Shown here piece after piece: positions 1 to 10,968 of a DNA stretch of 24,844 nt. Position 1 is the first letter of the stretch; each line of letters begins with the position of its first letter. Origin of the DNA: a virus. The notes under the pieces are model-generated. The model searched no databases and was not told the DNA's origin. It saw only the letters and a list, made by a program, of their open reading frames with translations. The stretch is from IMG/VR virus record IMGVR_UViG_3300042914_002219, positions 1 through 24,844 of that record, one strand, 5' to 3'. A program made the translations under genes and the position numbers.

Positions 1-602
1 GCGTAGGTGCTGAACCTGTCTGACCCGTACACCTTGCAGCCGGCGACAATCTGCGGTTCGAGTCGCGACGCGGTGCAATAGCTGGCGATCTTGATCGCGG
101 GATGGCCGCTGCGGTTGAGGACGCGCTTGATCGTCGGTTCGCCGACATACTCTCCGGGGCAGGGGACACAGCGGCCCGTCATATAGCCGTCCTCTTCCCG
201 CTCGGATGCGATCTGGCGCAGCTCGACCGTCGCGGCGCCGATCACCCGCGTGACCTCGTAATAGTCGATATTCGTCTGCTCATAGCCCCACATCGCGCGG
301 AAGATGTCGCCGACCGCGACCGACACGGGCGCCCGCGCCTCGGCCTTACGCTGGGCCTTGTAGGCGAGCGACGAGACGCGGGAAGAGACGAGGCCCTCAA
401 CATGGCGATCGACCTCCGCCTGCGACTTGAAAGAGTAGAACCACGCCGGCTTCCCGGCCTTGCCGATGAACGCCTTGGCCATGATGCGGCCGCCCAGCGA
501 CATCTGCCAGACCTCGACCTCAATATCCGGCCGATCGACGGTCAACGTAAAGCCCTGCGTTGCGAGCGCGCGGGCAAAGGCGAGCTTGTCGTTACGGTTC
601 AT
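1..602 (-). CDS. Conserved phage/mobile-element protein of unknown function, C-terminus outside window
   Basis: An open frame runs from an ATG at 602 to the window edge (200 full codons visible, no stop). The start is well supported by the strong ribosome site AAAGGAGG a few bases upstream on the minus strand. The protein begins MNRNDKLAFARALATQGFTL. It has a segment rich in Lys and Arg (residues about 48-80) and then GDIFRAMWGYEQTNIDYYEV (about 95-115). The W-G-Y-[DE]-Q-T-N-x-D motif is one I associate from memory with uncharacterised phage and plasmid proteins. A later stretch, GEYVGEPTIKRV, also fits that family. No catalytic motif, membrane segment or signal peptide is visible. It is the last visible gene of the minus-strand group, 74 bases downstream of its neighbour. 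Function unknown; coding status is fairly sure. Confidence 0.8.
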   Translation of the reverse strand, partial: MNRNDKLAFARALATQGFTLTVDRPDIEVEVWQMSLGGRIMAKAFIGKAGKPAWFYSFKSQAEVDRHVEGLVSSRVSSLAYKAQRKAEARAPVSVAVGDIFRAMWGYEQTNIDYYEVTRVIGAATVELRQIASEREEDGYMTGRCVPCPGEYVGEPTIKRVLNRSGHPAIKIASYCTASRLEPQIVAGCKVYGSDRFSTY

Positions 603-676
603 CTGCTGTTCCTCCTTTGAATGACTGGAGCCTGGCGCTCCCCACTGCCGCCCGCGTGGAGCGGCAGCCGGGACCG

Positions 677-1063
677 TCAGCAATAGCGATCCTGAAGCTC
701 GACGTATTGGGAGCGCAGGCTGTGGAAGCGGCGCCGGTTCAATTCGGCCCGTTGCCGCCAATCGGCGCCCTTGACCTCTTCGCGCTCCAGCGTGGCGGAT
801 TCCGCCCGCATGCAATCCATGGCGCGGAGCAGGGATCGCATCTCCTCGGCGATGTACGCCGGCGGCGCCTTCACATAACCCGCTGCCGGGGTAATGTGGA
901 CGGCCGGCCCGGCACCGCCCTCCAGCGTCGCGAAGCCGCGCGCCCGTATCTGATCGATCACGTCAACCGTGACATCGCCACCGTTGGCCTGGGCGAAGTC
1001 GGGGAAGAAAACCCGGCGCGGCGGGTCGTCGCCGATCGTGACGGTGACGTAGTTCCAAGACAT
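677..1063 (-). CDS. Hypothetical protein, 128 aa
   Basis: The frame starts at ATG 1063 with a strong GAGGAGG ribosome site close upstream and ends at 677. The N-terminal half (MSWNYVTVTIGDDPPRRVFF) looks like a small beta-rich domain. The C-terminal half (residues about 70-128) is charged and helical, rich in Arg, Glu and Leu, and could form a short coiled coil (TLEREEVKGADWRQRAEL). There are no recognisable catalytic residues and I do not recognise the family. It lies between a hairpin-rich intergenic stretch upstream and the WGYEQTN protein downstream, on the same strand. A candidate promoter sits 25-53 bases upstream of the start. Confidence 0.7.
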   Translation of the reverse strand: MSWNYVTVTIGDDPPRRVFFPDFAQANGGDVTVDVIDQIRARGFATLEGGAGPAVHITPAAGYVKAPPAYIAEEMRSLLRAMDCMRAESATLEREEVKGADWRQRAELNRRRFHSLRSQYVELQDRYC

Positions 1064-1087
1064 TTAATCCTCCTCGGTTGCAATTGG

Positions 1088-1116
1088 TACATAAAGAACA
1101 ATCCCCCCTCTTTCAA
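1088..1116 (-). promoter_or_regulatory. Candidate sigma70-like promoter for the 1063 gene
   Basis: Read on the minus strand, TTGAAA (1116-1111) is separated by exactly 17 bases from TATGTA (1093-1088). The -35 matches consensus in five of six places, the -10 in only three. A transcript would start near 1081 and leave a short leader containing the GAGGAGG ribosome site. The weak -10 makes this tentative. Confidence 0.35.
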
Positions 1117-1198
1117 CCCATTCCCCTCCATCCAGCCCTGCGCCCGCGGGAAACCCCATATGCACCTATCGCATGGGTCCTGGATGGGCGGGAACAAG

Positions 1199-1230
1199 GG
1201 CGCCGGTCCTTCTTCCCGGTTGCCGGCGCC
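1199..1230. other. GC-rich hairpin, 8-bp stem
   Basis: GGCGCCGG (1199-1206) and CCGGCGCC (1223-1230) are perfect reverse complements around a 16-base loop. This hairpin lies 15 bases from a second, stronger one at 1246-1274, between the stop of the 1281-1652 gene and the start of the 677-1063 gene. No U-tract follows on either strand, so it could be a factor-dependent terminator, an RNA-processing or stability element, or a protein site. Confidence 0.5.
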
Positions 1231-1245
1231 GCCTGGTGGGAAGAG

Positions 1246-1274
1246 GGGCGCCGCAGCTGGGGACCGCGGCGCCC
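1246..1274 (-). terminator. Strong hairpin just after a gene stop, terminator-like without U-tract
   Basis: GGGCGCCGC (1246-1254) and GCGGCGCCC (1266-1274) form a perfect 9-bp GC-rich stem with an 11-base loop. The stem begins 6 bases beyond the TAG stop (1281-1283) of the minus-strand gene, where a terminator is expected. On the minus strand the stem is followed by CTCTTCCC rather than a run of U, so an intrinsic terminator is uncertain. Confidence 0.45.
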
Positions 1275-1280
1275 GATACG

Positions 1281-1652
1281 CTAGTCGCGAGCGCCATATC
1301 GCTCGGCAATGTCGCCCCAGCATCCGACGCGGTAGTGTCGGCCGACGCGGAGTAGCGTCGGGGCGTAGGTATCGCCGGCGTTGCAGTAGATCACCCGCAG
1401 ATTGCGGCGCTTGGTTCTGAAAGTCTCGACGCCGTGCGTTTCGATCAGCCTGTCTACTGCCGCCATCCGCAGATATTGCGTCGGATGGCCATAACGGACC
1501 TCGTCGGCATCATGGCCGAGGAAGTCCTCGAGGTCGACGCGCGGCGCCAGCAACAGGCGCTTGACGTCGCGCGCAATGGCCATATCCCCCCTCGTTAGCT
1601 CAGACAACGCCCGAACGCTGGGCGTGCGATATGGAAGCGATATGTTCTGCAT
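1281..1652 (-). CDS. Hypothetical phage protein with C-terminal GDTYxPT motif, 123 aa
   Basis: I place the start at ATG 1652 (MQNISLPYRTPSVRAL), two bases after the TGA of the upstream 31-codon gene. A longer upstream extension in the same frame would run antisense to no recognised gene but would overlap the two real upstream genes and looks non-coding. The middle is helical and charged. The C-terminus has YCNAGDTYAPTLLRVG followed by YRVGCWGDIAERYG, a beta-strand pattern common in short uncharacterised phage proteins. No enzymatic motif is visible. The preceding GGGGA is only a modest ribosome site, so translation is probably coupled to the upstream gene. Two strong hairpins follow the stop. 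Confidence 0.7.
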   Translation of the reverse strand: MQNISLPYRTPSVRALSELTRGDMAIARDVKRLLLAPRVDLEDFLGHDADEVRYGHPTQYLRMAAVDRLIETHGVETFRTKRRNLRVIYCNAGDTYAPTLLRVGRHYRVGCWGDIAERYGARD

Positions 1653-1654
1653 GG

Positions 1655-1750
1655 TCACATCCCCGGAGTTGCGGCGAAAATAAAGGCAATGAAAGCCCAC
1701 AAGACAGCGGCGCCAATGACGCCTTTCAGGATCAGCCCGATCAGCGTCAC
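1655..1750 (-). CDS. Tiny single-span membrane protein, 31 aa
   Basis: This very short frame starts at GTG 1750 and ends at TGA 1657-1655. The GTG overlaps the TGA stop of the upstream gene as GTGA, and the next gene starts two bases after its stop, a tightly coupled arrangement. The protein, VTLIGLILKGVIGAAVLWAF followed by IAFIFAATPGM, is almost entirely one hydrophobic helix with a single Lys near the N-terminus. Small inner-membrane phage proteins of this kind can be holin-like, exclusion factors or regulators of host envelope proteins, but nothing here decides between these. A 71-codon ATG-started version of the frame exists, but its first 40 codons are Arg-rich and overlap the upstream gene. 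Confidence 0.55.
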   Translation of the reverse strand: MTLIGLILKGVIGAAVLWAFIAFIFAATPGM

Positions 1751-2496
1751 GACGCCACCACCAGGCTCGATCGGCGGAAGTAATGATCGGCGCCGACGCC
1801 ATGCGCGCGGATTGCGATATCCGCCCGCGCGCGGCTTGAATTGCCGCCGCATGCGAGACAGGCGTCGCATGTCGTCTTATGCCCGGATTCAGCGCTTGCG
1901 GGACACGCAACCTCGTGTCGGTCCAGCGTGTCATGATCGGTCAGAACCCGGAACGTCCGGAACCCCAGCATGCGCGCGGCCGCGCGATCGGCGGCGGAGT
2001 CGGCACTTGCCATGCAATATGAAGAGAACTCGGGGAACCTACGCCATTGATGGGTATATCCGGTGATCCGGCCGGAGTTAACTAGCAGCGCATCCCAGAA
2101 CGAAATCGGCGCCGCTGCAGGGTCTCCGTAGGTCCCAAGCCGAACCCGCCGGCCGCGAAACAAGTCAGCGGCACTTTCAACGTCCAAGTGATCATATCTG
2201 CCGGCAACCATAGTCCGGTAGACCGTCGTCGGGCCCCAAGACAGATTAACGTAGCAGGATCGACCGATCGCGCGCGTACCGTCAGCCTGGCCGCGATGCT
2301 GGCAGTCCCCACAAATCGAAGCATCGGCGCCGCTACGGCTGGCTTCGATCGGCGGTAGATCCGACCGTATGATATATGTCTGGATCAGGCCGGGCCCGGT
2401 TTTCCGGTTTCGGGCGCCGGCAAGTCCGGTCGCAATGATGGCGATTGGCGCGCCGTCTAACTCCGACGGGCCGCGCCATAGGATAGCAGATTGCAT
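1747..2496 (-). CDS. Conserved phage protein with Cys clusters (CGDC, CPAS, CxxCxxC), 249 aa
   Basis: The start is ATG 2496, with a clear GGAGGG ribosome site. An in-frame ATG at 2568 is less likely because it lies upstream of the best promoter. The protein has Cys pairs at C62/C65 (SICGDCQHRG) and C80 (RSCYVN), followed by a central conserved-looking segment with WGPTTVYR and AGRYDH. Near the C-terminus it has ACPASAESGHKTTCDACLAC, with C197, C209, C212 and C215. The spacing suggests metal binding, zinc ribbon or iron-sulfur. I recognise these CPAS...CxxCxxC signatures as recurring in uncharacterised phage proteins but know of no assigned activity. It is the first gene of the minus-strand operon, overlapping the tiny membrane gene by GTGA. 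Nucleic-acid binding is a reasonable guess only. Confidence 0.8.
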   Translation of the reverse strand: MQSAILWRGPSELDGAPIAIIATGLAGARNRKTGPGLIQTYIIRSDLPPIEASRSGADASICGDCQHRGQADGTRAIGRSCYVNLSWGPTTVYRTMVAGRYDHLDVESAADLFRGRRVRLGTYGDPAAAPISFWDALLVNSGRITGYTHQWRRFPEFSSYCMASADSAADRAAARMLGFRTFRVLTDHDTLDRHEVACPASAESGHKTTCDACLACGGNSSRARADIAIRAHGVGADHYFRRSSLVVAS

Positions 2497-2530
2497 GATG
2501 TTCCCTCCGTTGTTCATCGGCGCAATGCCG

Positions 2531-2558
2531 ACAATGGGAGCATATGAGGCACAATGGG
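2531..2558. repeat. Direct repeat ACAATGGG x2, 20 bp apart, at a promoter
   Basis: ACAATGGG occurs at 2531-2538 and 2551-2558, exactly 20 bases (about two helical turns) apart. One copy lies in the promoter spacer and the other just past the -10 element near the expected transcript start. This is the placement expected for a same-face operator pair controlling the minus-strand operon. Confidence 0.45.
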
Positions 2559-2568
2559 CGCGCGTCAA
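2539..2568 (-). promoter_or_regulatory. Sigma70-like promoter of the minus-strand operon
   Basis: On the minus strand TTGACG (2568-2563) and TATGCT (2544-2539) are separated by 18 bases, matching consensus in five and four of six positions. The transcript would begin near 2532, giving a leader of about 36 bases that includes the GGAGGG ribosome site of the 2496 start. It would read the Cys-cluster protein, the tiny membrane protein and the 123-aa protein. Confidence 0.6.
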
Positions 2569-2667
2569 GCGCTATCGATCAATAACGACGCATCGTCGCA
2601 TATGTCGCGACTAGTCGCCCATGATCGGTCCAAAGGCGATCCCAAAAGAGAAGCTCCCCCTTCCATA

Positions 2668-2689
2668 CTCCCATGCCCATAGATGGGAG
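2668..2689. other. Stem-loop, 7-bp stem
   Basis: CTCCCAT (2668-2674) pairs perfectly with ATGGGAG (2683-2689) around an 8-base loop. No U-tract follows on either strand. It sits in the control region upstream of the minus-strand promoter, so it could be a protein site or an element of a transcript crossing the region. Confidence 0.35.
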
Positions 2690-2811
2690 AGTACGTAAGG
2701 AGAGACGCTGCAGCTGATCGGCCGGCCGCTCGATTGCGCCTGCTGCGCCGATCTAGCGGCGCGACAAGCACGACGGCCCAAGGTCACTCCGCCTTCGCCT
2801 GGCAAACGTGA

Positions 2812-2826
2812 TGTTATACTATAACA
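2812..2826. promoter_or_regulatory. Perfect palindrome TGTTATA-C-TATAACA, operator candidate
   Basis: The 15-base sequence has two 7-base arms that are exact reverse complements around one central C. It is AT-rich in a GC-rich region and contains -10-like hexamers in both directions (TATACT on plus, TATAGT on minus), although no good -35 lies at 16-18 bases on either side. The form is typical of a dimeric regulator site that also overlaps a promoter core. Confidence 0.45.
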
Positions 2827-2880
2827 CTCTCGCTGCGACCGACTCGCATCAATCCCCGTGCCAGCTACCGTTGCCGATCG

Positions 2881-2991
2881 GCCACACTCGGCGACTATCC
2901 GCCTAGCGGCCCAGCGTTGCACGGTTGCCACAGTGTGGCGGATCGGCCACAGTGCGGCCGTCTGGGTGTGGCAAGGTCGCCACAGTGTGGC
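2881..2991. repeat. Cluster of GCCACA-n-TGTGGC palindromes upstream of terS
   Basis: Two identical sites GCCACAGTGTGGC lie at 2927-2939 and 2979-2991, with a one-base variant (GTGC) at 2946-2958. Half-sites are GCCACA at 2881-2886 and TGTGGC at 2967-2972. Each full site is a 6+1+6 inverted repeat; the variant has one arm mismatch. Centres of the full sites are 19 and 33 bases apart. An 11-base direct repeat GATCGGCCACA also occurs at 2876 and 2941. The cluster ends about 145 bases before terS. It could be an operator array, the packaging-initiation (pac or cosB-like) site bound by the small terminase, or replication iterons. The sequence cannot decide, but spacing and symmetry argue for dimeric protein binding. 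Confidence 0.65.
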
Positions 2992-3096
2992 GCAGAAGCC
3001 GCGGCGGGCATCGGCGGCGACCCCCTCCCACCGGCAGCGACAACGACAGACCCCCCCCGGCCTTGGGGTTTGCGAAGTCAGCCTGCGCGCGCTACG

Positions 3097-3112
3097 TGCG
3101 TGTTCTCACGCA
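3097..3112 (+). other. Small hairpin in the terS leader
   Basis: TGCGTG (3097-3102) and CACGCA (3107-3112) form a perfect 6-bp stem with loop TTCT, 23 bases before the terS ATG. It is followed by C-rich sequence, not a U-tract. It may influence terS translation, which lacks a visible ribosome site. Confidence 0.3.
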
Positions 3113-3135
3113 ACCCCCTGTCCCCCAATAGAAAA

Positions 3136-3840
3136 ATGCCCATTTTAGAGCCACAACCTCCACGTGTCCCTGCTGATTGGTCTCGTGTTGACTGGGAGGT
3201 GGTGAGGGTGCTTTGGGAGGCTGGGGCATCTATGTCTTGGCTGCATAGGCGGTATGTGTTTACTGATCGGGAGTTTGGTGTGAGGGTAGAGGGGTTTTCT
3301 TCTTTTAGGAGGAGCGAGGCGATGAAGCGTGGTGGTTGGGAGGGACCGAAGGTTGTGGGGGTTGTGGATCCTGGGGGGAGTAGTCTCGAGATGTGGGTGG
3401 ATGGCTTGGCAGCCATTGACTATCCTCGGTTTGACAGGAACTTGTTTCCGTATGGGGAGGTGGCGCAGTTTCTGCATAATGTGGGGGAGGGGATGCCGGT
3501 GGTTTTGGCGGCGCCGGCGGCGGGGATTGACGCGCAGCAGGTGGCGTCGTGGCGGAAGGTGGAGCCGCGGTTTGATCAGTTGATTCGCCGGGCGAGGGCG
3601 TTGGCGGCGAGGAGGTTGGTCAGGAACATCACGCAGTCGGATGATTGGCGGGCGTCGGCCTGGATGCTGGAGCGGAACGTGGCGAGGGAGGAGTTTCGGC
3701 AGGAGGCGGCGCAGGAGAAGCTGGTCATCGAGATCAATGTCAGCCGGGACCAGGCGATCGCGGCGAAGCATGGGGTCATCGATGTGACCCCGGAGGTGGT
3801 GGATGGCCAAGTGGTCCCTGGATTACCTGCCAAGCCCTAA
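3136..3840 (+). CDS. terS: Terminase small subunit, 234 aa
   Basis: This is the DNA-recognition subunit of the packaging motor. The central and C-terminal part has the small-terminase pattern: a helix-turn-helix-like segment (VVLAAPAAGIDAQQVASWRK) followed by the helical oligomerisation region (LIRRARALAARRLVRNI, then DDWRASAWMLERNVAREEF). The position directly before terL, overlapping it by 38 bases, supports the call. I use ATG 3136; the same frame continues upstream through the palindrome cluster, which looks non-coding. No Shine-Dalgarno sequence precedes the ATG (AATAGAAAA). The first 150 or so codons are strikingly poor in C, with T- and G-ending codons, unlike the C-ending codons of terL. 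The N-terminal domain (residues 1-100) is larger than in minimal small terminases, with a WSRVDWEVVRVLWEAGASM segment that may be an extra helical DNA-binding element. Confidence 0.85.
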   Translation: MPILEPQPPRVPADWSRVDWEVVRVLWEAGASMSWLHRRYVFTDREFGVRVEGFSSFRRSEAMKRGGWEGPKVVGVVDPGGSSLEMWVDGLAAIDYPRFDRNLFPYGEVAQFLHNVGEGMPVVLAAPAAGIDAQQVASWRKVEPRFDQLIRRARALAARRLVRNITQSDDWRASAWMLERNVAREEFRQEAAQEKLVIEINVSRDQAIAAKHGVIDVTPEVVDGQVVPGLPAKP

Positions 3841-5296
3841 GCAGCAGGTGCTGCATGCCGTTCGAGCCAGGCAGATCATGTTTGGCGGGGCGGCGGGTGG
3901 GGGGAAGAGCCACGCGCTCAGGATGGACGGCTTGATTGCCTGCCTGGAGAACCCTGGCTTGCAGGCATATCTGTTTCGCCGCACGTACCCGGAGCTGAAG
4001 GACAACCATCTGATTCCGATCCAGCAGATGGGGATACCGCCGGAGGTGGCGGTGTGGAAGGAGACGGATCGGAAGTTGTCGTTCTACAACAACGCCTTCC
4101 TGCAGTTCTGCTTTGCCGAGGATCTGCAGGACATCTTCAAGTACCAGGGCGCGGAGATGCACTGGCTGGGGATCGACGAGGGGGCGTTGTTCCTGCCGGA
4201 GCAGATCAAGTTCCTCAGGACGCGAGTGCGACTGGGCCGGTACGAGGCGACGCAGAAGGACATGTTTCCGCGGATCGTCATCGGGTCCAACCCTGGGGGG
4301 CCGAGCCACAATCTGCTGCGCGAGATCTTCATCGATCAGGCGCCGCCGCTGCAGATGTTCCGGGACCGGACGACCAAGACGAAGAAGAGCGCTGGTTGGA
4401 CGAGCCTCTACATACCCTCCCGCATGGAGGACAACCCTCACCTGGATGTGGACAGCTATGAAGGATCCTTCACCGCCTTGTCTGCCGAGCGAGCCAAGGC
4501 CCTGCGGGATGGCGACTGGGATGTGGTGGCGGGAGCAGCTCTCAGCATGCTCGAACGGGGGAAGCATCTGGTCCGCCCATTCAAGCCCCCAAGACACTGG
4601 ACACACATCATGGCTATGGACTGGGGGACCGCAAAACCCTTCTCCGTCGGCTGGTGGGTCCTGAGCGAAGGAGCTACCCTTGCAGGCAAGGATGGGTTCC
4701 CGGATCGCCACCTGCCGAAGGGGGCGCTGATCCACTTTGCCGAGTGGTACGGCTGGTCGGGGGAGGCGGATACCGGGTGCCGGATGTCGTCCGGCGAGGT
4801 TGCCCGCGAGATCCTGAAGATGGAGAAGGAGATGGATCTGCCGCCGATCGACATCCGGGTGGCGGATCCGCAGATGTGGGCGAGCCAGGACGGGCCGTCG
4901 CCCCAGGAGAACATGCGCCGGGCCACCGATGGGCTGTTCGTGCTGCGGCAGGGGCGCCGGGACAGGAAGGCCAACTACACCGAGTTCGTTGAGCGGCTCA
5001 TTGGCAAGCCAAATGATGACGGCGTCGTGGAGCCTATGCTATACGTCACGGCGAACTGCAGGCACTTCTGGCGCACCGTGCCGGGCCTTGTCCTCGATAC
5101 GCTGGAACCCGACAAGGGACCGGCGACCAGAACCCAAGAGGACCACATCTACGACATGAGCGGCTTCGCGATTGCGACATATGCGAATGTGTCGACAGCG
5201 CGGGACCGTTATGACGAGGAAATGAGGGACTTGGCGCGCCAATTTGGTGGCGGGTCGAGGGATCCATATGCTGTTCGGTCTAGGAGGATGAGATGA
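3803..5296 (+). CDS. terL: Terminase large subunit, 497 aa
   Basis: ATPase and nuclease of the DNA-packaging motor, acting at the portal vertex. The N-terminal ATPase domain has a Walker A loop GGAAGGGKS (residues 28-36), Walker B WLGIDE (121-126, with D125 and E126) and a coupling-type GSNPGG (161-166). The nuclease domain begins near MAMDWGTAKP (D273), the usual first acidic residue of the RNase H-like fold. IRVADPQMW and a C-terminal HIYDMSGFA provide the later acidic positions. Length is normal for the family. The start at 3803 has GGAGG upstream and lies inside the end of terS. The stop overlaps the next start as ATGA. Confidence is high. Confidence 0.96.
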   Translation: MAKWSLDYLPSPKQQVLHAVRARQIMFGGAAGGGKSHALRMDGLIACLENPGLQAYLFRRTYPELKDNHLIPIQQMGIPPEVAVWKETDRKLSFYNNAFLQFCFAEDLQDIFKYQGAEMHWLGIDEGALFLPEQIKFLRTRVRLGRYEATQKDMFPRIVIGSNPGGPSHNLLREIFIDQAPPLQMFRDRTTKTKKSAGWTSLYIPSRMEDNPHLDVDSYEGSFTALSAERAKALRDGDWDVVAGAALSMLERGKHLVRPFKPPRHWTHIMAMDWGTAKPFSVGWWVLSEGATLAGKDGFPDRHLPKGALIHFAEWYGWSGEADTGCRMSSGEVAREILKMEKEMDLPPIDIRVADPQMWASQDGPSPQENMRRATDGLFVLRQGRRDRKANYTEFVERLIGKPNDDGVVEPMLYVTANCRHFWRTVPGLVLDTLEPDKGPATRTQEDHIYDMSGFAIATYANVSTARDRYDEEMRDLARQFGGGSRDPYAVRSRRMR

Positions 5297-5604
5297 CAGA
5301 TACGGCCTACATGCGATTGTTCGAGATCCTGGTTGATCACGGGGATGATTTCACGATCTCGGAACTGGTCAGCGTCTACAGTCTGAACGAAAACAGCACC
5401 CGTCAGGCCATTGCCAAGCTCCAGCGGCTCAATATGGTTGTGCCGACGGGTGAGATTAATGGGCGCGACAAGGTGTACGTCATCGCCAACCAGGCGTCTT
5501 CTGGTGTGGTTGGGAAGGACCCGGAGAAGATTTTTGCCAGGCTGATGCGGCACCGGCGGTACGAGAACTTCACGTTTAAGAAGCCGCAGGTTTTTGCGTC
5601 ATGA
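5293..5604 (+). CDS. Winged-helix DNA-binding protein, 103 aa
   Basis: The small protein has a helix-turn-helix arrangement near residues 20-48 (FTISELVSVYSLNENSTRQ then AIAKLQRLNMV) followed by a beta-wing-like stretch (VVPTGEINGRDKVYVIA). This is the layout of MarR/GntR-like or replication-initiator winged helices. It is coupled to both neighbours by ATGA overlaps (5293 and 5601), so it is co-transcribed with terL and the modification cassette. It could regulate the late operon or the cassette, or act in packaging as an accessory DNA binder; the sequence alone does not choose. The C-terminal 30 residues are basic (FARLMRHRRYENFTFKKP). Confidence 0.75.
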   Translation: MTDTAYMRLFEILVDHGDDFTISELVSVYSLNENSTRQAIAKLQRLNMVVPTGEINGRDKVYVIANQASSGVVGKDPEKIFARLMRHRRYENFTFKKPQVFAS

Positions 5605-6832: not shown

Positions 6833-6882
6833 TCTTCTGTGAGGTCGACAACGGCGAGATCGTCAGCAAGGGGGTCGCATGA
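6829..6882 (+). pseudogene. Remnant of the 3' end of the GT-B-like gene (17 codons)
   Basis: After the XF1762 stop, a short frame from GTG 6829 encodes VIFCEVDNGEIVSKGVA and then stops. The last 11 residues match the C-terminus of the 5601-6368 protein (DNGEIVVRKGVA) apart from one gap and one change. It has no function as a protein that I can see, but it retains the AAGGGGG ribosome site that serves the next gene at 6879. Confidence 0.6.
6845..6880 (+). repeat. Direct repeat flanking the XF1762 gene, right copy (36 bp)
   Basis: Partner of the repeat at 6328-6366. It lies between the XF1762 gene and the nuclease gene and supplies the nuclease gene's ribosome site. The pair would allow deletion of XF1762 by recombination. 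Confidence 0.8.
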
Positions 6883-7208
6883 TCAAGGCAAAGTCGGCCA
6901 AGGCCAAAGGCCGGAAGCTGGAGCAATGGATCGTCAAGCAGTTCGAGGCACTCGGCCTGACTGCCCGACGCCAGCCCGGCAGCGGCGCGTTTGACGCCTT
7001 TCCTCACGATGTCGAGGCCCGGCTCAGGGACGGTCAGCCCGTCCTGGTCGAGGCCAAGCAGCGGAAGAAGGACGCCTGGGCAACGGGCGAGCGGTGGATC
7101 GGGAGCGCCGACATCCTGGTGGTCAGAATCGACCCCGAGCCGGGCAAGCAGCTCAACGAGCCGCGCGTCTACATGAAGTGGTCAACCTTCGAAAGGCTGG
7201 TCAGATGA
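6879..7208 (+). CDS. Holliday-junction-resolvase-like PD-(D/E)xK nuclease, 109 aa
   Basis: The small basic protein has the layout of archaeal Hjc-type resolvases found in phages. It has an N-terminal Lys-rich helix with E15 (AKGRKLEQWIVKQF), then RRQPGSGAFDAFPHDVEARL with acidic D39/D44, then the central ExK motif VEAKQRK (E58, K60). In the family these acidic residues and the Lys bind metal and cleave branched DNA. Length is typical (about 110 residues). It could trim branched replication intermediates before packaging, as T4 gp49 and T7 gp3 do, which fits its place next to terminase. Coupled to the next gene by ATGA. Ribosome site AAGGGGG lies in the repeat. Confidence 0.75.
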   Translation: MIKAKSAKAKGRKLEQWIVKQFEALGLTARRQPGSGAFDAFPHDVEARLRDGQPVLVEAKQRKKDAWATGERWIGSADILVVRIDPEPGKQLNEPRVYMKWSTFERLVR

Positions 7209-8290: not shown

Positions 8291-9028
8291 ATGGACCCGT
8301 TTCCGTATTGGATCGGCTACGACAGCAGGGAGAAGGACGCCTTCGATGTCTGTTCCTTCTCCTGTCAGCGAAAATCCTCCGTTCCGCTCTACATCCGCGC
8401 CCTGAAGCACGGCGAACTGAGGCATTCCGGCCTGTTCTACCGGGAATGGCGGGTTGACGGGCAGACGGGGCGCATGTTCGACACCCTGGATGGCAAGCCG
8501 TTCTCGACGGAGTTTGCCTTCACCCGGTTCCTGGTGCCGGCGCTTCAGCGGTACAAGGGTTGGGCGCTGTTCACCGACTGCGACATCCTCTGGCTGGGCG
8601 ATGTGGCCGAGCTGATTGGCCTGGCGGACGACAAGTTCGCCGTGATGGTGGTCAAGCACAACTACGCGCCGCGCAACCAGGTCAAAATGGATGGCCAGGC
8701 CCAGCAGAACTACCCGCGGAAGAACTGGTCGTCCGTGATCCTGTGGAACTGCGGGCATGAGGCGAACAAGAAGCTGTCCGCTCAGTACGTCAACACGGCG
8801 CCGGGATGGGCCTTGCATGGCTTTTCCTGGCTGCAGGACAACGAGATCGGGGCGCTGCCGGAGAGCTGGAACTTCCTGGCAGGCCATAGCAACAGGTCGG
8901 TGTCGCCCAAGGTCATGCACTTCACCGAGGGCGGCCCGTGGTTCGATCACATGAAGGATGTGCCATTTGCCGGCTGGTGGACGAGCGAGTTCGACCACAT
9001 GCTGGCCTCAGAGGGGAAATTCGAATGA
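8291..9028 (+). CDS. GT-A-type glycosyltransferase, 245 aa
   Basis: Chosen start is ATG 8291, preceded by AGGGGGC; an in-frame ATG at 8273 lies inside the previous gene. The GT-A signature is the metal-binding DxD motif FTDCDILWLGD (D96-C97-D98) after TRFLVPALQRYKGWALF. A WNCGHEANKKL-like segment and the C-terminal HFTEGGPWFDHM (a His/acidic pair of the kind that completes metal binding in GT8-like enzymes) support this. I infer transfer of a sugar from a nucleotide-sugar donor. Acceptor unknown. The lack of a signal peptide or transmembrane segment indicates a cytoplasmic enzyme. Confidence 0.78.
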   Translation: MDPFPYWIGYDSREKDAFDVCSFSCQRKSSVPLYIRALKHGELRHSGLFYREWRVDGQTGRMFDTLDGKPFSTEFAFTRFLVPALQRYKGWALFTDCDILWLGDVAELIGLADDKFAVMVVKHNYAPRNQVKMDGQAQQNYPRKNWSSVILWNCGHEANKKLSAQYVNTAPGWALHGFSWLQDNEIGALPESWNFLAGHSNRSVSPKVMHFTEGGPWFDHMKDVPFAGWWTSEFDHMLASEGKFE

Positions 9029-10968
9029 AAATCATGGTCATAACGAGTTGGTCTGATGCTGGTTTTGAACTTTACGGCAGGAGGTTCGCCGAGACCGCGC
9101 ACGAGTTCTTCCATGACAGCATGGACCTGACGATCGTCACGGACGAGGATTTGTCGCAGGACCAGGGGTTCCGCGACTTCATGGCCAGACATGCCAGCAG
9201 GCGCATGGATGCCTCGGCGCCGGGCTACGACTACCGGCAGGACCTGCTCCGGTTTGCCCACAAGATCTTCGCCCTGAAGGTCGGCCTGTCGGCTGCGAGA
9301 GACTACGATTACCTCGTCTGGCTCGACGGCGATATCGAGACCCGAAAGAAGATCAACGCCGAATTTCTGATGCAGATCTGCCCGCAGGACAAGGACGGGG
9401 CGCTTCTGTCTCGGGCCGGATCCGCTCCGCATCCGGAGTGCGGGTTCATGTCCTTCAACCTCCGGCGCAAGGGCGGTCACCTGCTCAGCCGCTACGTCGA
9501 GTTCTACGAAAAGGACGAAGTCCTGAAGCTCTCGGAGCTGCACGACAGCCATGTCTTCATGGCGATGATCGTGGCGCATGTTCAGGCGTTCCAGTCCGAT
9601 TGGCACGATCTTTGCCCGATCGGCGGTGGACCGTATGGCCTGGATGCCTTCGAGAACTCGGTCCTCAACGACTACTTCGTCCACAAGAAGGGCGCCCGCA
9701 AGTCTGCCCTGACGAACGCCGATATCCTCGCCAGACTGCTTGGCGACAAGGTGGCGAAGATCTGCAAGCCGGATGCCATCACCGACGACCCGGTGATCGT
9801 CCTGGACTGCGACATGCAGCCTGTCGAGCTGCTGCGTGAGGCGGTCCAGAAGCTGGCAGGCAGGACGGTGATCTACCGGGGCTGGTACTCGTCCGACGAG
9901 CGTGGCGCGCATGTCGATACCACCCGCTACGGCATCAACACCGTCGTGACCGATCTGGTGGCCTTCGAGAGCATCGAACTGGCCGCCGGTGGCGGGTTCA
10001 TCCACATGGCGGTGGGGAAGGACTATCCGATCCCGGCTGACCTGCCCGTGTTCCGGCAGCGGGAACTTGAGGTCATGACCAAGGAGCAGGCCAAGGCGCT
10101 GACCGGCGGGGCCTACTCGACCAACATGCTGGTCAAGACCCAGAACTGCGTCCCGAACGAGACCATCCAGGCCAACATCCAGGGAAACCTGGGGCTCATC
10201 AAGAAGTGGGTCCGGGCGCTCCTTCCGCATCGCCGCCGGGCGATCATCGTGTCGGCCGGGCCGTCGCTCGATCTGCCCGAGACCATGGACGCCATCAGGA
10301 TGGAACTAAATTCGGGCGCCGTCCTGTTCTGCGTCAAGCACTCCCATGCCAAGCTCCTGGCAGCCGGGATCGTTCCCTTCGGATGCGTCCTGCTGGACCC
10401 GCGCCCGCATGAGGGCATCAGTACCCATGGGGTGCCGCGGGCTGAGCTTCTGCCGGAGGCGCATCCAGAAGTGACCTACTTCGTGGCGTCGATGGTCGAC
10501 CCCTCGACCACCAAGAGGCTTCTGGATACCGGTGGGAAGGTGGTCGGGTGGCATGCGGCGGTCGGGGCCAACGAGGTGGCGGTGTTGCCCGAGGATCACA
10601 AGAAAATGCTCATGGGGGGCGGATCTTCGTCTGCCGGCAGGGCTATGATCCTGGCTTGGCAGTTCCTGGGGTTCTCTTCGATCGGGTTGTATGCCTTCGA
10701 CTCGTGCCATTTCGATGAGGGCAAGCTCGACAAGAACGCCAGGCACCAAGACGGGACGGAGAAGTACTTCGCCATGGAAGTTGGCGTCGGGGACCTGAAG
10801 AAGACGTTCTGGACCGACCGCGACATTCTCTGCCAGGCGCAAGACTTCACCCGGTTCCTGCAAGAGACGCCCTGGATTCCGTGGGACGCGCACGGGCCGG
10901 GGATGGTGGCTTGGGTGTGGCAGTCTTCCAAGGGGCGGTTGCCCCGGTTCGAGGATGAGTTCGCATGA
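9025..10968 (+). CDS. Two-domain GT-A plus DUF115/MptE-like (Maf-type) protein, 647 aa
   Basis: Start ATG 9025 overlaps the previous stop, with GAGGGG upstream. Domain 1 (about 1-300) is a GT-A glycosyltransferase with DxD motif WLDGDIE (D101-G102-D103) and an LSRAG...PECGFMSFN acceptor-side segment. Domain 2 (about 395-620) begins RRRAIIVSAGPSLDLPETMD (G412-P413-S414-L415-D416). VLFCVKHSHAKLLAAGIVPF follows, the nucleotide-sugar binding pattern of the DUF115/MptE-like domain of flagellar Maf proteins, which transfer nonulosonic acids such as pseudaminic acid to flagellin. A later GGGSSSAGRAMILAW and IGLYAFDSCHF fit the same domain. Fusion of the two domains in a phage gene placed before the portal is unusual. 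I infer a protein- or glycan-modifying bifunctional transferase; donor and acceptor cannot be read from sequence. Confidence 0.75.
   Translation: MKIMVITSWSDAGFELYGRRFAETAHEFFHDSMDLTIVTDEDLSQDQGFRDFMARHASRRMDASAPGYDYRQDLLRFAHKIFALKVGLSAARDYDYLVWLDGDIETRKKINAEFLMQICPQDKDGALLSRAGSAPHPECGFMSFNLRRKGGHLLSRYVEFYEKDEVLKLSELHDSHVFMAMIVAHVQAFQSDWHDLCPIGGGPYGLDAFENSVLNDYFVHKKGARKSALTNADILARLLGDKVAKICKPDAITDDPVIVLDCDMQPVELLREAVQKLAGRTVIYRGWYSSDERGAHVDTTRYGINTVVTDLVAFESIELAAGGGFIHMAVGKDYPIPADLPVFRQRELEVMTKEQAKALTGGAYSTNMLVKTQNCVPNETIQANIQGNLGLIKKWVRALLPHRRRAIIVSAGPSLDLPETMDAIRMELNSGAVLFCVKHSHAKLLAAGIVPFGCVLLDPRPHEGISTHGVPRAELLPEAHPEVTYFVASMVDPSTTKRLLDTGGKVVGWHAAVGANEVAVLPEDHKKMLMGGGSSSAGRAMILAWQFLGFSSIGLYAFDSCHFDEGKLDKNARHQDGTEKYFAMEVGVGDLKKTFWTDRDILCQAQDFTRFLQETPWIPWDAHGPGMVAWVWQSSKGRLPRFEDEFA

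Follow-up and report, generated by a model that had tools for sequence, protein, structure and literature searches.

A lineage-specific palindrome array and a conserved terS-linked block in a candidate packaging-start and late-control region of an uncultured phage

What is the function of a cluster of GCCACA palindromes in the non-coding DNA upstream of a viral small terminase gene, and is it the terminase that reads it? The window analyzed here, 24,844 bases long, comprises the whole of one virus record, which is a linear fragment. GCCACA occurs in it 14 times, counting both strands, and seven of these half-sites fall within positions 2881–2991, arranged as follows.

2881–2886, plus strand: lone half-site GCCACA, whose context GATCGGCCACA is found again at 2941–2951
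2927–2939: perfect 13-bp palindrome GCCACA-G-TGTGGC
2946–2958: palindrome with one mismatch, GCCACAGTGCGGC
2967–2972, minus strand: lone half-site (TGTGGC on the plus strand)
2979–2991: perfect 13-bp palindrome GCCACA-G-TGTGGC
2927–2991: interrupted 65-bp dyad centered on 2959, with six mirror-placed half-sites and 19 of 25 arm positions paired

This cluster is real and non-random. Among 1000 dinucleotide-preserving shuffles of positions 2569–3135, none contained three alike odd palindromes (the largest family had two members) and none had one hexamer seven times within 120 bp (maximum six, in 3 of the 1000), which rules out a chance origin. The initial annotation, which had described three full and two half sites here, was therefore correct that the cluster is genuine and correct on the half-sites, but its full sites comprise two perfect palindromes and one with a mismatch. 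The search for further copies that it proposed found no exact GCCACA-G-TGTGGC elsewhere in the window, and none with fewer than two mismatches; at two mismatches there are two more matches, approximately the number expected by chance. The half-sites at 2927, 2934 and 2946 mirror those at 2967, 2979 and 2986 about position 2959, and the resulting dyad folds better than 200 of 200 shuffles on either strand (z −3.5 and −4.0), as repeated palindromes must. Both perfect palindromes lie inside a 25-nt direct repeat that is 88% alike, with identical cores and differing flanks.

The array is located between divergent genes, in an intergenic region spanning 2569–3135. The other elements of this region, and the genes to its right, are listed below.

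2813–2825: 13-bp AT palindrome GTTATA-C-TATAAC, single-copy in each genome
2832–3042: repeat-rich, fast-changing spacer, of which the array is the version carried by the window lineage
3043–3111, plus strand: conserved 70-bp block (C-run, GGCCTTGGGGTTT, GCGCGCTACGTG..TGTTCTCACGC), from DNA search and alignment
3136–3840, plus strand: terS, small terminase subunit (phrog_4102, E 8e-10, and alignment)
3803–5296, plus strand: terL, large terminase subunit (phrog_979, E 7e-32)
5293–5604, plus strand: small, lineage-restricted protein with weak similarity (E 0.03) to a family of transcription regulators

The assignment of the neighboring gene as a small terminase holds, given its family match and the large terminase next to it. 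The array had also been placed just upstream of terS; it is upstream, but 144 bp separate its end from the terS start at 3136, and the conserved block lies in between. TerS is predicted, at low-to-moderate confidence (mean pLDDT 64), to be helical with two three-helix, HTH-like stretches. This model found no match in the PDB; among viral models it weakly matched small subunits of terminases or phage proteins without a name. On its other side, the array is bordered by a divergent leftward gene of family phrog_2554. Four leftward genes (window 1–2568) were sought in related phages and gave no relatives, while the remaining genome has them; a mosaic boundary thus lies immediately left of the terS module. 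The left-flank gene family was rejected as carrier of the module, since it is common yet its loci lack the module. Further to the right, positions 6879–7208 encode a 109-aa protein that is 79%–99% identical in all relatives, above the conservation of terS, and that by eye looks like a nuclease or resolvase.

Searches with TerL and the portal protein returned 42 and 37 viral loci, respectively, the nearer ones 66%–100% identical. Among cultured phages TerL has distant matches only (best ∼33% identity), and its relatives in bacterial genomes are likewise distant and found in Clostridia. The closest relative (G001, 99%–100%) starts at about window position 3353, short of the array, so only a single genome is known to carry the array, and an assembly error in this repeat-rich stretch may have contributed to it. 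The palindromes are absent from ten representative metagenomic relatives that cover the region. Nor is the motif widespread: the paired GCCACA pattern had no match in 2.9 million viral contigs, the window's own record excluded, and BLAST gave no meaningful relatives in cultured phages or plasmids.

The spacer that holds the array cannot be aligned between lineages, with the window 51%–57% identical to the others and shuffled means of 54%–56%. Every relative retains ∼200 bp at this position. Counting the window, 8 of the 10 genomes have more direct 8-mer repeats here than their shuffles do, and the words differ each time (GCGCCTGCCC in L006, CCATCTCGGCGGATC in L019, CGGTGCGGTCC in L012). Inverted repeats are not generally enriched in the spacers, and the palindromes are peculiar to the window's phage. 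Where strains of one species differ, the spacer has changed most (97.6%–99.5% identity, compared with 99.7%–100% for left flank, block and terS). The AT palindrome at the left of the spacer is identical in one relative (L006) and present in altered forms at the same place in L011, L019, L008 and L013, the relatives' versions including GTTACACTATAAC and GTGATAATATCAC. It matches GCCACA-n-TGTGGC in length and in purine/pyrimidine pattern (GYYAYA-n-TRTRRC).

Two pairs of relatives, L011/L019 and L008/L013, bear directly on whether TerS reads the repeats. Within each pair, TerS residues 1–100 are 98%–100% identical and the blocks 97%–99%, but the spacers are only 66%–67% identical (shuffled, 53%–57%). 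Because equal TerS N-termini accompany differing spacers, TerS in these phages is not reading words base by base. By extension from these relatives, base-by-base reading of GCCACA by TerS is disfavored, and with it the base-specific form of the TerS recognition site that was one of the initial suggestions.

The block behaves differently from the spacer. A DNA search with positions 2560–3140 recovered it at 79%–85% identity in four relatives and, besides the short AT palindrome, it is the only clearly conserved non-coding stretch detected there. An alignment of 13 sequences retains the C-run, TTGGG-TTT, GCTACGTGTATGTCCCCACGC or GCGAAGGCCATGCCCCCACGC, and then an A-run before the terS start; in the window, the stretch between array and terS has the C-run, GGCCTTGGGGTTT and a GC-rich tail. 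The block lies 24 bp upstream of terS and is single-copy in every genome checked, with one short sub-pattern matching twice in G008. In L008, a methyltransferase gene separates terS from terL and the block still precedes terS. Since the block stays with terS in this genome, and the left-hand genes are unshared, the module belongs to terS. The gene itself, for a DNA methyltransferase (L008 positions 8794–10038), encodes a product that starts and ends with words of the terS/terL junction, MA(N)KWSLDYLPSP and GLPAKP, as if it had been inserted via duplication of that junction.

The terS-linked block could be the core of a packaging site (cos/pac) or the start of the late operon. A single copy per genome is what one packaging site would show, and a promoter in repeated use would not. 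Because the block is conserved and unique per genome and the array is unshared, the block is the better candidate for a terS-linked packaging signal, if there is one. The packaging, operator and iteron roles first offered for the cluster all stay live, consistent with non-coding DNA between divergent genes, but as packaging signal of terS the cluster ranks behind the block. Two other observations on the block were set aside. A covariation analysis gave seven weak pairs with an unfavorable covariation term, and an RNA fold was rejected; L207 and L210, which matched the block pattern and had no terminase in the stretch checked, were dropped.

Plus-strand GC skew jumps at the block in all contigs examined. 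Over the 500–1000 bases to its right, the skew is positive and at or near the top of each contig (0.21–0.51; window 3001–4000 and the corresponding stretch in G002, G003, G004, G005, G008 and G010). This stretch has GGGG runs, and the skew fades over 1–2 kb. The pattern looks like a strand-specific mutation bias beginning at the block, as from a transcription start, an R-loop or a displaced strand. Two contigs also have an end close to the block: the start of L030 lies 16 bp ahead of the C-run, and G011 (L048) stops ∼50 bp beyond it. These ends, ∼66 bases apart, disagree with one cut and were rejected as physical DNA ends; they are more likely assembly branches at the conserved stretch.

The reading that we favor, tentatively, is that 2569–3135 is a pac- or cos-like packaging-start and late-control region, with the block as its core and the array as a lineage-specific accessory in the position of pacL. 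The region directly precedes terS and terL. In the mechanism we envisage, a packaging-start and late-gene control region would travel with terS, its core being 3043–3111, and the array would be an accessory segment at the place of SPP1 pacL (box A). A TerS ring might be loaded or wrapped on the array mainly through DNA shape and the number of protein copies rather than an exact word, and shape-based loading would let each lineage retain its own repeats. We infer that the block would be the packaging signal, that TerS would touch the array, and that the repeats would help by their shape. A sequence-specific contact would tie TerS to the repeat word and, because the two are untied in the relatives, a shape-dependent accessory array is preferred.

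The closest precedent is the pac region of SPP1 and SF6 (pacL box A, pacC box B and pacR box C). In these phages the cleavage boxes are 90% alike, but the SPP1 box A repeats are absent from SF6, which has others instead (PMC4737164). Their TerS proteins are interchangeable, bind DNA with little sequence preference, and are thought to choose DNA by conformation (PMC4737164; review, PMC9611059). As here, repeats lie to the left of a conserved stretch that precedes terS, and the repeats vary between related phages while terS and the conserved region stay alike. In contrast, the SPP1 boxes are direct repeats, whereas the window array is palindromic and lies in 70% GC DNA; and whereas SPP1, a distant phage, has demonstrated cleavage and TerS binding, the likeness of the window to it is one of layout only. 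How small terminases recognize their own genomes is still unsettled in general (PMC9611059).

The lambda cos site resembles the window in having several copies of a candidate terminase-binding word beside terS and next to a putative cutting site. Its arrangement is different. In lambda, cosB sits between cosN and terS and the R sites are not palindromes; if the block were the cut site here, the array (2927–2991) would lie on its far side from terS. Retention of the binding word, as for a lambda-type cosB, is also unlikely for the window lineage, to judge from the two pairs of relatives above that keep the TerS N-terminus and not the spacer.

Our preferred reading has points against it besides the disagreeing contig ends and the distance of SPP1. 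Where palindromes are perfect and their flanks have diverged, binding by a dimeric regulator is a more natural reading than recognition by shape alone, and the block could instead be the start of the late operon, given the jump in plus-strand skew. Nearly as likely is an operator array, in which a dimeric regulator, either the lineage's own or the host's, would bind the 13-bp palindromes and control divergent promoters for the rightward terS operon and the leftward genes. Exact 6-1-6 dyads with conserved cores are the classic mark of such a regulator, and the window has three in 65 bp, in 19-bp steps and mirror-symmetric, with identical cores and differing flanks. Like the operator arrays of dimeric phage repressors and activators, these are exact short dyads in several copies within a divergent intergenic region. 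The winged-helix gene at 5293–5604 is as lineage-restricted as the motif (the closest relative has it at 96% identity, one other has a 27% homologue, and none was found in the rest), making its product a candidate reader of the palindromes. Operators often recur, but a second place for the motif was found neither in the window nor in the close relatives G001, G012 and G013; no sigma-70-like promoter was found beside the array; and the repeats of other lineages at the same spot are non-palindromic.

Repeat turnover in an unconstrained spacer is a more doubtful explanation. Here a chance dyad in GC-rich DNA would have been multiplied through short duplications and would have no sequence-specific reader. 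The lineage-specific expansions of direct repeats that most relatives have at this position, the placement of both perfect palindromes within a direct repeat, and the faster change of the spacer between strains are all as this would predict. However, duplications would copy the flanks along with the core, the palindromic symmetry is peculiar to the window's phage, and phages seldom keep idle DNA such as the ∼200 bp retained in every relative.

Replication iterons, with the dyads bound by a phage initiator and unwinding starting at the AT palindrome, are improbable. Dyad-symmetric units in ∼19-bp steps are shared with lambda-type iterons; the spacing of 19–33 bp between dyads, together with an AT-rich patch at a distance of ∼100 bp, is reminiscent of the lambda origin, and strand bias shifts at the adjoining block. 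Against this, the neighbors are terS and the phrog_2554 gene, and no initiator gene was identified beside the array or elsewhere in the window; the AT patch of 13–15 bp is no proper AT-rich unwinding region; and in near-complete relatives the minimum of cumulative skew does not usually coincide with the array. An RNA element, in which the array is transcribed and acts as a hairpin leader, is very improbable: the array does fold better than its shuffles on both strands, but any repeated palindrome folds likewise, and it has no Rfam match, no terminator-like site within it and no conservation.

Should the array be an operator, it would mark the late-gene switch of one lineage. Returning to the packaging-start reading, we propose, with rather less confidence than for the region as a whole, that the terS-linked module combines a fixed cutting block with an exchangeable repeat segment that TerS picks through shape, the words being unrelated from lineage to lineage and palindromic in that of the window. 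If true, the SPP1/SF6 idea would reach beyond those two phages to a large, uncultured, GC-rich group in which natural variants form a series. With terS and the 70-bp block near-constant and the adjoining repeats swapped, these phages offer a naturally occurring test of whether it is sequence or shape that TerS reads.
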